Of a stretch of DNA of 64,000 nucleotides, positions 16,353 to 19,766 are shown piece by piece. A model generated the notes under the pieces. That model saw nothing but the letters and a program-made list of their open reading frames with translations, made no database searches and had not been told where the DNA came from. The position numbers and the translations under genes are program-made. How positions within the stretch are numbered: the first letter of the stretch is position 1; each line of letters begins with the position of its first letter. Source of the stretch: Dongia mobilis (lineage in GTDB: Bacteria; Pseudomonadota; Alphaproteobacteria; Dongiales; Dongiaceae); assembly GCF_004363235.1 (NCBI RefSeq), contig NZ_SNYW01000014.1:69501-133500 (forward strand), in the 5' to 3' direction.

Positions 16353-17522
16353 ATGACCAAGCGCGACCGCACCCTGGCTACCCATGCCGGCAATCACCCG
16401 AAGGCCCATCACGGCATCGTCAATCCGCCCGTATACCACGCCTCGACGGTACTTTATGACAGCGTCGCCGACATGCGGGCGCGCCACAAGGAGCGTTTCA
16501 ATACGGTCTATTACGGGCGTTACGGCACCCCGACGACCTTCGCCCTGGAAGAAGCCGTGGCCGCCCTGGAAGAGGCCGACCGGGCCGTTGCCGTGCCGTC
16601 CGGGCTTGGCGCTGTGTCCGGCGCCCTGCTGAGTTTTCTCGGCGCCGGGGACCATGTGCTGATGGTGGACTCCACCTACGAGCCCACCCGCGTGTTCTGC
16701 GACACGCAGCTTCGAAGGTTCGGCATCGAGACGACCTATTACGACCCGTCGGTCGGCGCCGGTATCGCCGCGCTCATCCGACCCAATACCAAAGTCGTAT
16801 ATCTGGAGAGTCCCGGCTCCCACACCTTCGAGATCCAGGACGTGCCCGCGATCGCCGCCGCCGCCCATGAAAGGGACTGCGTCGTCATCCTGGACAATAC
16901 CTGGGCCAGCCCCCTCTTCTTCAAACCCTACCGCCACGGAGTCGATGTCGTGGTGCATGCGGCGACCAAATACATCGTCGGCCATTCGGACGTGATGATG
17001 GGCATCATCACCATGCGCGATCGGTTCTTTACGCAGGTGAAGACCCAGGTTCACGGCATGGGCTTTGCCGTCGGTGGCGACGATTGTTATCTGGCCCTGC
17101 GCGGCCTGCGTACGATCGGCGCCCGCCTCGCCCAGCACCAGCAAACGGCACTCACCCTCGCCAACTGGCTGAAGGGACGGCCGGAAGTGGCCAGGGTGCT
17201 GCACCCCGCATTGCCGGAACATCCCGGCCATGACTTGTGGAAACGCGACTTCCTGGGTTCAAGCGGCCTCTTCGGCGTGGTCTTCAACCCGTTCGATGAT
17301 GCGCGCGTAGCCGCCATGATCGACGGCATGGAGCTTTTCGGCCTCGGGTTTTCCTGGGGCGGCTATGAAAGCCTGATGGTGCCCTCCAGCCTCGGCAGCG
17401 CGCGAACCGCCACCAGATGGCGGCAGCCGGGGCCGACGGTGCGCATCCATGCCGGGCTCGAGGATCCCGACGACCTGATCGCGGATCTGGCCCGCGGCCT
17501 CGACCGGCTGCGCGGCAACTGA
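16353..17522 (+). CDS. metC: Cystathionine beta-lyase (PLP-dependent)
   Basis: Cleaves cystathionine to homocysteine, pyruvate and ammonia in methionine synthesis. This Cys/Met-metabolism PLP enzyme of 389 residues has VYYGRYGTPTTFALEEAVAALE, the PLP-phosphate loop PSGLGAVSGALL, VILDNTWASPLFF (Asp pairing with PLP nitrogen), and HAATKYIVGHSDVMMG with the Schiff-base Lys. The GYESLMVPS segment near the C-terminus fits the beta-lyase subgroup; a gamma-synthase role is less likely. It is a single-gene unit convergent with rpsD. Confidence 0.9.
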   Translation: MTKRDRTLATHAGNHPKAHHGIVNPPVYHASTVLYDSVADMRARHKERFNTVYYGRYGTPTTFALEEAVAALEEADRAVAVPSGLGAVSGALLSFLGAGDHVLMVDSTYEPTRVFCDTQLRRFGIETTYYDPSVGAGIAALIRPNTKVVYLESPGSHTFEIQDVPAIAAAAHERDCVVILDNTWASPLFFKPYRHGVDVVVHAATKYIVGHSDVMMGIITMRDRFFTQVKTQVHGMGFAVGGDDCYLALRGLRTIGARLAQHQQTALTLANWLKGRPEVARVLHPALPEHPGHDLWKRDFLGSSGLFGVVFNPFDDARVAAMIDGMELFGLGFSWGGYESLMVPSSLGSARTATRWRQPGPTVRIHAGLEDPDDLIADLARGLDRLRGN

Positions 17523-18367: not shown

Positions 18368-19432
18368 CTAGAAAATTCTGACGCAATAGACGGGCGGCAG
18401 GTGGCTGGAGAGCAGTTGCCACGCCTCCCCGCCATCGGAACTGGTCCAGAGATTGCCCGTGGTCGAGCCGAATGCCAGCTTCTCACCGGTGTCGTCCACA
18501 TCCATGGCGTGGCGCAGGACCAGGTCGAAGGCCGGCTTTTCCGGCAGGCCCTTTGTGATGGTCCGGAAGCTCCGCCCGCCATCGCTGGTCTTGGCAACAC
18601 AGAAGGTCTCGTCCTTCGGCATGCGGTACTGGTCCTTCTCGCCAGGGACGAACCAGGCGGTCAGCGGATCCCGCGGATGAACGGCAACGGCGAAGCCGAA
18701 GGCCTTGGAGATCTCCTGCCAGGTCGACCCGCCATCGGACGACGTGAAGACGGCATTGTGATGCTGGATATAGAGCCGGTCGGGATCCTGCCGCGCGCGG
18801 CGCATCTGGTGCACATCCTGCACGTTCGGGTTCTCCGCCTGGTCGGGCGGCATATAGGCGGCCCACAATCCCTTCGAGGTATTGCGCCAGCTCGCCCCCT
18901 CATCCTCGGTCTGCCAGACCCCGCCGGCGGAAATGGCGATGCCCATGCGCCGGCTGTCGTTGGGATGGATCGAGATCGAACTGACGGCTGGGGTATCATT
19001 GCCGGCGCCGCCCCATTGGGTGCGTTCCGGCAGGTTCATAAAGGACTGGTTCAGGGTCCAGCTTTCGCCCGCGTCGTCGGAGCGGAAGATCCCCGCGGGC
19101 ACCGTGCCGGCATAGATCGTGCCGGGCCGATCCGCACCCGCCGCTTCCAGCGCCCAGATGTTGAGAACCGCAGGTGCGTTGCTGGCCTCCATCTTCGGGA
19201 AGGCGGGCGTCGCGATTTCGCGCCAATTTGCGCCGTCATCGTCCGAGCGGTGCAGCTTGGGTCCGAAATGGCCGTGATCGAGGGCCGCATAGAGGCGGCC
19301 ATCACGCGGGTCGCGCATCACCATGCTGACCGGCGTGCCGCGAAAGTGGACACCCTCGTAAAGCCAGCCGCCGTCCTTCAGGCGATAGAGAATAAGCCCC
19401 TTGCGTGACGCGACTGCCAGTCTGCTTGCCAT
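18368..19432 (-). CDS. Asp-box (BNR/VPS10-like) beta-propeller protein
   Basis: A 354-residue protein built from six Asp-box repeats (S-x-D-x-G-x-x-W/F) at about residues 63-70, 118-125, 175-182, 231-238, 282-289 and 331-338, so a six- or seven-bladed propeller. Automatic annotation would call it exo-alpha-sialidase or glycosyl hydrolase, but no sialidase RIP motif or signal peptide is present, so it is probably cytoplasmic and not a secreted glycosidase. It begins 11 bases after a MoaD/ThiS-like gene ending in Gly-Gly, and the two look like one unit. Function unknown. Confidence 0.85.
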
Positions 19433-19443
19433 ATCGTTCTCCC

Positions 19444-19713
19444 TCAGCCGCCGGACAAAGCCTGCAGCACATGGATCTCGTCGTCCTCATCCACGAGATG
19501 CGAGGGCCAGTCGGCGGCAGCCAGGCGTTCACCGTTCAGGAAGATGACGACATGCTTGCGCAGGCGGTTCTGCTCGTCGACCACATAGCCGCGGAGCTTC
19601 GGATATCGGGCGAAGACGGGCTCCAGCGCATTACCAAGATTACCGGCCGCAATGTGGACAGCTTCAGTTGGTGCGACCTTGCGCAGATGCGACGTGAATG
19701 AGACGCGTGCCAT
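19444..19713 (-). CDS. MoaD/ThiS-family ubiquitin-like protein ending in Gly-Gly
   Basis: An 89-residue beta-grasp protein. VVIFLNGERLAAADWPSHLVDEDDEIHVLQALSGG matches the C-terminal half of MoaD/ThiS sulfur carriers, including the terminal Gly-Gly that an E1-like enzyme would adenylate and thiocarboxylate. No moaE, thiG, moeB or other cofactor gene is nearby; the partner gene encodes an Asp-box propeller. It may be a carrier for an undescribed sulfur-transfer or protein-tagging reaction (inference). The start is ATG 19713; the much longer frame to 20034 is antisense noise under trmJ. Confidence 0.85.
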   Translation of the reverse strand: MARVSFTSHLRKVAPTEAVHIAAGNLGNALEPVFARYPKLRGYVVDEQNRLRKHVVIFLNGERLAAADWPSHLVDEDDEIHVLQALSGG

Positions 19714-19766
19714 CCTGACCTTGTCCGGCCCGGTTTGGACCGCTTCCGCTGGGTTCGGAACGGCGG

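Follow-up and report, generated by a model that had tools for sequence, protein, structure and literature searches.

A conserved bacterial gene pair of a MoaD/ThiS-like Gly-Gly protein and an Asp-box beta-propeller, with a possible role in sulfur transfer

Few clients are known for the ubiquitin-like carriers of bacteria, and the carrier described here is widespread and goes with a client of the 3b7f family, for which a structure has been solved without a function. Among the described acceptor enzymes, BexX borrows its carrier and its E1 from primary metabolism. In operons of the thioquinolobactin/PDTC type, a ThiS/MoaD-like carrier is accompanied by an E1-rhodanese and often by a JAB protein (Iyer et al. 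2006, PMC1779556), and the words 'propeller', 'sialidase' and 'BNR' are absent from the main text of that article. On the propeller side, the function of 3b7f is listed as not known (PMC2716378). No paper describing a pair of the two proteins was found in the open-licence PMC literature searched. In Pseudomonas aeruginosa the pair is PA1355 and PA1356. PMC11538994 names PA1356 once.

The locus studied here lies in a window (the whole stretch of DNA analysed) of 64,000 nucleotides from Dongia mobilis. Its features, in the numbering of the window, are as follows.

18368..19432, minus strand: seven-bladed Asp-box beta-propeller of 354 residues with the signature of the linked family (profiles, model, fold match, alignment)
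19439..19443, minus strand: GGGAG, likely Shine-Dalgarno sequence of the propeller gene, inside the 11-base gap (read from the sequence)
19444..19713, minus strand: 89-residue protein of the MoaD/ThiS fold (CysO/SAMP1-like) with a C-terminal Gly-Gly, the proposed carrier (PF02597, model, fold matches)
19447..19452, minus strand: codons GGC GGC of Gly88-Gly89, with the TGA stop directly after (sequence)
19719..19722, minus strand: AAGG, likely Shine-Dalgarno sequence of the MoaD-like gene (read from the sequence)

The propeller gene follows the MoaD-like gene on the same strand after an intergenic gap of 11 bases (19433-19443). The preliminary description of this DNA had reported an 89-residue ubiquitin-fold protein ending in LSGG and, 11 bases later, a propeller with six Asp-boxes, and both were borne out: the first protein ends in ...LQALSGG before the stop codon, matches PF02597 and gives a CysO/SAMP1-like model, and six boxes of the pattern [ST]xDxGxx[WF] were counted in the second. 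Likewise, its statement that molybdopterin and thiamine genes are absent nearby is correct as far as the four neighbours annotated with Pfam and NCBIfam are concerned, which encode TrmJ, citramalate synthase, ribosomal S4 and cystathionine beta-lyase. The nearest named relatives found were Dongia and Rhodospirillaceae MAGs. The cystathionine beta-lyase gene (window 16353-17522, plus strand, NCBIfam on the window copy) lies about 850 bases past the propeller, and five further loci of two families (L004, L025, L026, L029 and L030) have relatives of it close to the pair.

The small protein belongs to the MoaD/ThiS superfamily by its profile score (PF02597, 30.1 bits against a cut-off of 22.5) and by its C-terminal Gly-Gly (LSGG, then the stop codon), and with the SAMP1 equivalog model NF041918 it reaches 46.4 bits, below the cut-off of 60. 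Its structural model (pLDDT 91.4) matches 4n6e_B best (Z 13.0, rmsd 2.2, 88 aligned residues), followed by 1v8c (Z 12.8), 3dwg_C (Z 12.6), 3po0 (Z 12.3) and E. coli MoaD 1fm0 (Z 9.6), where matches within 1 unit of Z count as tied, which sets 4n6e_B level with 1v8c, 3dwg, 3dwm, 3po0 and 2l52. CysO bound to BexX and CysO bound to CysM are thus among the closest folds. In an alignment of 16 diverse members of the family, D46, R52, G88 and G89 are invariant and H54 nearly so.

Nearly every carrier read retains the Gly-Gly. The frame extends 6 to 24 residues beyond it in L034, L036 and L038, which come from three genomes of a single family, and likewise in L053, L147, L152, L154 and L191, so that trimming would be needed to expose the Gly-Gly in these proteins. 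The paired carrier of Nonomuraea gerenzanensis (L057:9069-9380, plus strand) ends in ...VYVLPALA, without a terminal Gly-Gly. Where the two genes nearly abut (L027, L031, L034-L038), the Ser-Gly-Gly codons TC[A/C/G]GGAGG[G/A] double as the Shine-Dalgarno sequence of the propeller. The idea that the Gly-Gly is kept merely for that purpose was rejected, as other loci, and those with the propeller gene first, keep it with other codons or positions.

A different identity for the small protein, that of the genome's only molybdopterin-synthase small subunit, was raised in the preliminary description as one of the outcomes that would undo its proposal, and it was likewise rejected. There are three PF02597 matches in the window's genome, one of them a moaD immediately upstream of moaE on contig C10 and another a second moaD on contig C2, beside a molybdenum hydroxylase identified by reading; C10 is also the only place with a MoaE match, and the window carrier has neither a MoaE partner nor the place of the genome's MoaD. 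As regards activating enzymes, one MoeB/ThiF protein scores over the cut-off in this genome (C10, 266 bits). PF00899 was found over its cut-off in 40 of 40 genomes, 39 of which carry the pair; these were chosen for completeness from the 53 carrier genomes, G051 included, and the weak cases are two fragments (G200, G231) and a 34-residue match (G370). MoaE occurs in 50 of the 52 pair genomes of the class sample and in 212 of the 333 others, as raw counts uncorrected for genome size and completeness, and the two pair genomes without it (G127, G205) are 74% and 91% complete.

The propeller is modelled with seven blades (pLDDT 86.8, pTM 0.89). By sequence, the PDB contains one relative up to E 0.1, namely 3b7f (E 5.7e-52, covering query residues 22-352), and 3b7f also comes far ahead of all others in the fold comparison (Z 45.1, rmsd 2.3, 343 aligned residues, the next row being at Z 28.5), so that the window protein belongs to the 3b7f family by sequence and by fold across the propeller. 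GH74 xyloglucanases have tandem propellers with a catalytic Asp pair; in a comparison of fold, the single window propeller aligns with some 300 residues of GH74 chains (Z 24.6-28.4). The model of the F510_1955 family glycosylhydrolase, NF045728, gives 61.8 bits against a cut-off of 175. The identification as a sialidase was rejected, since no sialidase (GH33) family profile matched the propeller in Pfam at E<=0.001 or in NCBIfam up to E 0.1; the names sialidase and glycosyl hydrolase are probably database misnomers for this clade. No signal peptide was recognised on reading its N-terminus.

Across 63 family propellers, solitary ones included, K11, W140, S168, H208, Q223, H225, R270 and R307 are 98-100% identical. 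Among 11 distant, unlinked Asp-box relatives, in a rough alignment, H208 is kept in 10, W140 in 7, K11 and R270 in 2 each and S168 in 1, while none has Q223, H225 or R307. At position 151, 87% of the family propellers have His and the window protein has Ser. According to the secondary structure of the model, the signature residues are mostly found in B-C turns, D-A loops and the starts of inner strands, which would place them on the face opposite the Asp-box hairpins, in a putative pocket deduced from this structure and the alignment. The active site of glycosidase Asp-box propellers likewise lies opposite the Asp-boxes (PMC2716378). Mean loop conservation is 0.57 (B-C) and 0.49 (D-A) at the top and 0.48 (A-B) and 0.54 (C-D) at the bottom; the top loops overall are not clearly above the bottom ones, so that the argument is carried by the named residues.

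To what extent the two genes belong together was surveyed in one set of 385 genomes from the class of the window, searched both with the propeller and with a family profile of the MoaD-like protein. Fifty-two of the 54 carrier matches, from 53 genomes, adjoin a propeller on the same strand, the remaining two being a fragment at a contig edge (G220) and a carrier adjoining an E1-rhodanese (G051). Seen from the propeller side, in a tally of the best 74 propeller rows (E up to 6.0e-12) that counts same-strand neighbours only, the MoaD-like gene comes first in 28 of 29 cases below E 1e-90, with gaps of 4-45 nt including the stop codon, and the pair is found with the propeller first in 21 of 25 cases between E 1e-90 and 1e-40. 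A partner is present in one of two propellers between E 1e-40 and 1e-27 and in just 2 of 18 between 1e-27 and 6e-12, which marks the latter as generic Asp-box propellers without a partner. The closer unpartnered propellers of G315 and G226 sit at contig ends. Four other solitary propellers (G117, G222, G252 and G122) have the full signature, and no carrier match at E<=1e-6 was found anywhere in their genomes. In a tree of 68 carriers, those encoded before their propeller form one clade (98/99) and those encoded after it fall into several, with the reservation that the tree has few columns, long branches and unsettled bootstrap values, and was built without the Acidobacteriota loci.

In a sample of 259 genomes of the phylum, 12 have a propeller at E<=1e-30 and in 11 of these the carrier adjoins it, and the carrier profile matched 66 more genomes without a propeller neighbour. 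Five loci of the commonest groups of the latter were read: in L102 and L103 two PLP-enzyme genes surround the carrier together with a ThiF gene (Pfam, L102 only), and L105 and L107 are partly similar. The preliminary description had mentioned, for other bacteria, a 'MoaD/ThiS family' annotation next to 'exo-alpha-sialidase', and this was indeed seen on plasmids of Pseudomonas and Mitsuaria, where a 'MoaD/ThiS family protein' adjoins an 'exo-alpha-sialidase'; on a Burkholderia plasmid the neighbour is a hypothetical protein, and in Cupriavidus metallidurans CH34, whose megaplasmid carries the pair, the two matches adjoin each other at a place for which the record lists no genes. Three Rhodobacterales plasmids have a family propeller and no carrier in the stretch read. 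In one solitary case, a plasmid of Rhodobacter sp. CZR27 (L125), the propeller adjoins the ergothioneine genes egtD and egtB.

The pair is present in at least five bacterial phyla and in both gene orders. Beyond the window's phylum, it was found in Actinomycetota, Acidobacteriota, Gemmatimonadota and Dormibacterota. An initial propeller match led to a search of three genomes; it was a family member truncated at the edge of a contig in one case (L008) and a weaker, different propeller in the two others (L013, L020). All three genomes proved to contain the pair. They are Sulfidibacter corallicola (Acidobacteriota) and two MAGs, one of Gemmatimonadetes and one of Dormibacterota; in the Dormibacterota MAG the propeller runs off one contig while its end and the carrier open another. 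For Actinomycetota the evidence comes from plasmids: the genes are paired in Arthrobacter and in Nonomuraea, the latter with the carrier lacking Gly-Gly, and in the stretches read Streptomyces BHT-5-2 has a propeller alone and S. clavuligerus a carrier alone.

Acidobacteriota were read more closely, with a carrier-profile match at E<=1e-10 in 124 of 232 genomes. Contexts were read for 71 carriers among the matches listed, namely the best 30 plus 41 picked by score and open-frame length, a non-random choice, and the labels CysO-type and QbsE-type were assigned by genomic surroundings. Of these 71 carriers, 41 adjoin a propeller, although in L163 a YciI gene intervenes, and one forms a fusion with it, and all 42 propeller-linked carriers end in Ser-Gly-Gly. 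All 27 carriers with Ala-Gly-Gly are without a propeller, 22 of them being beside or fused to an E1 or a cysteine-synthase-like gene, and two Ser-Gly-Gly carriers also lack a propeller. One of these two is encoded at L182:2499-4430 (minus strand), where a nitrite/sulfite reductase carries at its C-terminal end a MoaD-like domain that closes with ALSGG. Near two of the propeller-linked carriers (L181, L191), the same stretch contains a cysteine-synthase-like match. Fusions of MoaD to E1 with an internal AGG were observed in L156, L170, L172-L178 and others, many near a cysteine-synthase-like gene; in L170 the ThiS, ThiF and rhodanese domains were confirmed by Pfam. Outside Acidobacteriota the paired carriers do not always end in SGG, with AGG in L084 and L123 and TGG in L029 and L030. 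Some of the Acidobacteriota carriers that come first and end in PAVSGG may represent a second origin of that gene order.

Two loci connect the carrier with the propeller on the one hand and with an activating enzyme on the other. In G699 (Acidobacteriota), a single open reading frame of 528 residues begins its conserved part with a MoaD domain (69-154) ending in ISGG and continues, after some 20 linker residues, with the propeller (175-527), with Pfam ThiS and BNR matches on the same chain; such a fusion was seen once. In Sulfidibacter, also once, a divergent E1-rhodanese gene (ThiF 279 bits, Rhodanese 53 bits) lies 38 bases from the carrier. A polyketide synthase gene is found near this Sulfidibacter locus.

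As for the wider neighbourhood, clustering the neighbours of 75 loci gave no third gene common to all. Counts over 79 loci are rough, with flanks of different length and some places entered twice: a MarR gene stands beside the pair in 14, divergently in 9, and VOC (4), DUF1428 (4) and YciI with an ECF sigma factor (3) recur. Queries for MoeB, JAB and CysM (cysteine synthase) gave no match in the 79 pair loci, and the E1-rhodanese query gave one rhodanese-sized stretch, L068:5054-5404 (minus strand, E 1e-13), about 1.5 kb from the pair, which is probably a rhodanese. The linkage to cysteine synthase, JAB or E1 that goes with CysO-type systems is thus absent from the window's flanks and the 79 loci, Sulfidibacter being the exception. 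An anti-phage ubiquitin-like system was rejected as an identity, no PADLOC model matching either protein up to E 0.1.

Altogether, carrier and propeller very probably form a dedicated functional partnership. It had been asked whether the adjacency reaches beyond close relatives, and it does, with 52 of 54 carriers in the 385 genomes, two gene orders, other phyla and one fusion. This partnership is real but unstudied, most likely one of a sulfur-donor protein with the enzyme that uses it. The reading preferred here, to which we give a probability of roughly 0.48, is by analogy that of a two-component module in which a CysO-like carrier would be charged by the housekeeping MoeB and the propeller would be its dedicated sulfur acceptor. 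Gly89 would be adenylated and converted to a thiocarboxylate by a housekeeping E1 of the MoeB type, or in Sulfidibacter by the E1-rhodanese of the neighbouring gene. Once charged, the tail would dock on the propeller face opposite the Asp-boxes, at the conserved Lys, His, Gln and two Arg, and the propeller, acting as MoaE does to MoaD or BexX to CysO, would use the thiocarboxylate on some small molecule. The MarR regulator beside the module in some relatives suggests an inducible accessory function. Sulfur transfer is made plausible by the CysO-like fold, by the Gly-Gly in nearly all carriers, by PF00899 in every genome scanned for it and by the E1 found once beside the pair. The solitary propellers, the pair without Gly-Gly and the internal Gly-Gly of the fusion hold the mechanism at about even odds. 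Counted against a sulfur relay are those solitary propellers with their signature, the tails past the Gly-Gly though the 79 loci have no JAB match, and the fact that an E1 stands beside the pair once; tail chemistry may not be universal, given the Nonomuraea carrier and the fusion. A wider claim can be made tentatively, namely that the propeller could represent a class of enzymes that take sulfur from a ubiquitin-like thiocarboxylate at a Lys-His-Gln-His-Arg-Arg site, spread over at least five phyla and under MarR control in some lineages, for making or detoxifying a metabolite.

Rather unlikely, though the strongest of the alternatives, is a non-catalytic pairing, in which the MoaD-like protein would be a binding or regulatory subunit and its Gly-Gly tail a structural plug in the propeller channel, with no sulfur chemistry. 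The Nonomuraea pair, the internal Gly-Gly of the G699 fusion, the C-terminal tails of several carriers and the solitary propellers with an intact signature all fit such a role. It accounts less well for a Gly-Gly present in nearly all carriers with differing codons, which make it more than a ribosome-binding site, for a carrier fold closest to known thiocarboxylate carriers and SAMP1, and for the E1 that adjoins the pair in Sulfidibacter. The preliminary description had proposed a sulfur-carrier or protein-conjugation module; its first half gains from the CysO-like fold, the retained Gly-Gly, the presence of PF00899 in the genomes scanned and the single neighbouring E1, whereas conjugation found no specific support here. 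For such conjugation, in which an E1-charged tail would be attached to lysines, either those of other proteins or those of a propeller in the role of client or receptor, one may cite SAMP1 among the closest profile and fold matches, the conserved K11 of the linked propellers and the resemblance of the extended tails to precursors in need of processing, but no JAB gene was matched in the 79 pair loci and the conserved residues resemble a site of binding or catalysis more than a lone acceptor lysine, which leaves it improbable. The chances are similarly slim for a branch of molybdenum-cofactor synthesis in which the pair would modify or deliver molybdopterin, with the propeller in place of MoaE or as an insertion chaperone: the excess of MoaE among pair genomes, in raw counts, is in its favour, but is equally expected if the carrier merely borrows MoeB, and moaD-moaE, as well as another moaD next to a molybdenum hydroxylase, are already present in the genome of the window, with no molybdenum-cofactor gene among the annotated neighbours of the window pair or of the three annotated plasmid pairs. 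Chance adjacency or inherited synteny, for which one could plead that no third gene is common and the locus has no other hallmark, is in practice excluded and was rejected on the class survey and the Acidobacteriota reading, because the pair stays while its neighbours differ, in two orders, across phyla and in one fusion.

Such a partnership would give a role to a clade of propellers and add a pathway of sulfur relay or conjugation that may draw on the E1 of molybdenum-cofactor synthesis. The pair lends itself to direct tests, as two small proteins with a defined tail and defined residues.

A comparison with known systems shows both likeness and difference. On the propeller side, 3b7f (Reut_B4987, 'putative glycosyl hydrolase with BNR repeats') belongs to the same family over nearly its whole length, and the signature H, Q, H, R and R is visible in its alignment with the window propeller. 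SAMP1 is close in profile and fold, with 16 of 16 carrier members scanned matching the NCBIfam SAMP1 model at E<=0.01 and a fold Z of 12.3, but the window carrier stays below the cut-off of that model, and conjugation is a feature of SAMP1 that is hypothetical for the pair. MoaD-MoaE molybdopterin synthase shares the MoaD fold and a two-gene logic of carrier and acceptor, but no MoaE adjoins the window carrier and the genome encodes moaD-moaE separately. Thioquinolobactin/PDTC-type systems are alike in having ThiS/MoaD-like accessory carriers outside molybdenum-cofactor and thiamine synthesis; their operons include an E1-rhodanese, whereas among the pair loci tested only Sulfidibacter has one. 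The CysO-type carriers read in Acidobacteriota end in Ala-Gly-Gly and the pair carrier usually in Ser-Gly-Gly, and unlike CysO systems the 79 pair loci have no cysteine synthase or JAB match, the Acidobacteriota loci L181 and L191 being those with a cysteine-synthase-like one. The closest parallels are CysO-CysM (3dwg) and BexX-CysO (4n6e), which share with the pair the carrier fold (Z 12.6 and 13.0), the terminal Gly-Gly and an acceptor enzyme, dedicated or borrowing, the partner there being a PLP or ThiG-type enzyme and here a beta-propeller.
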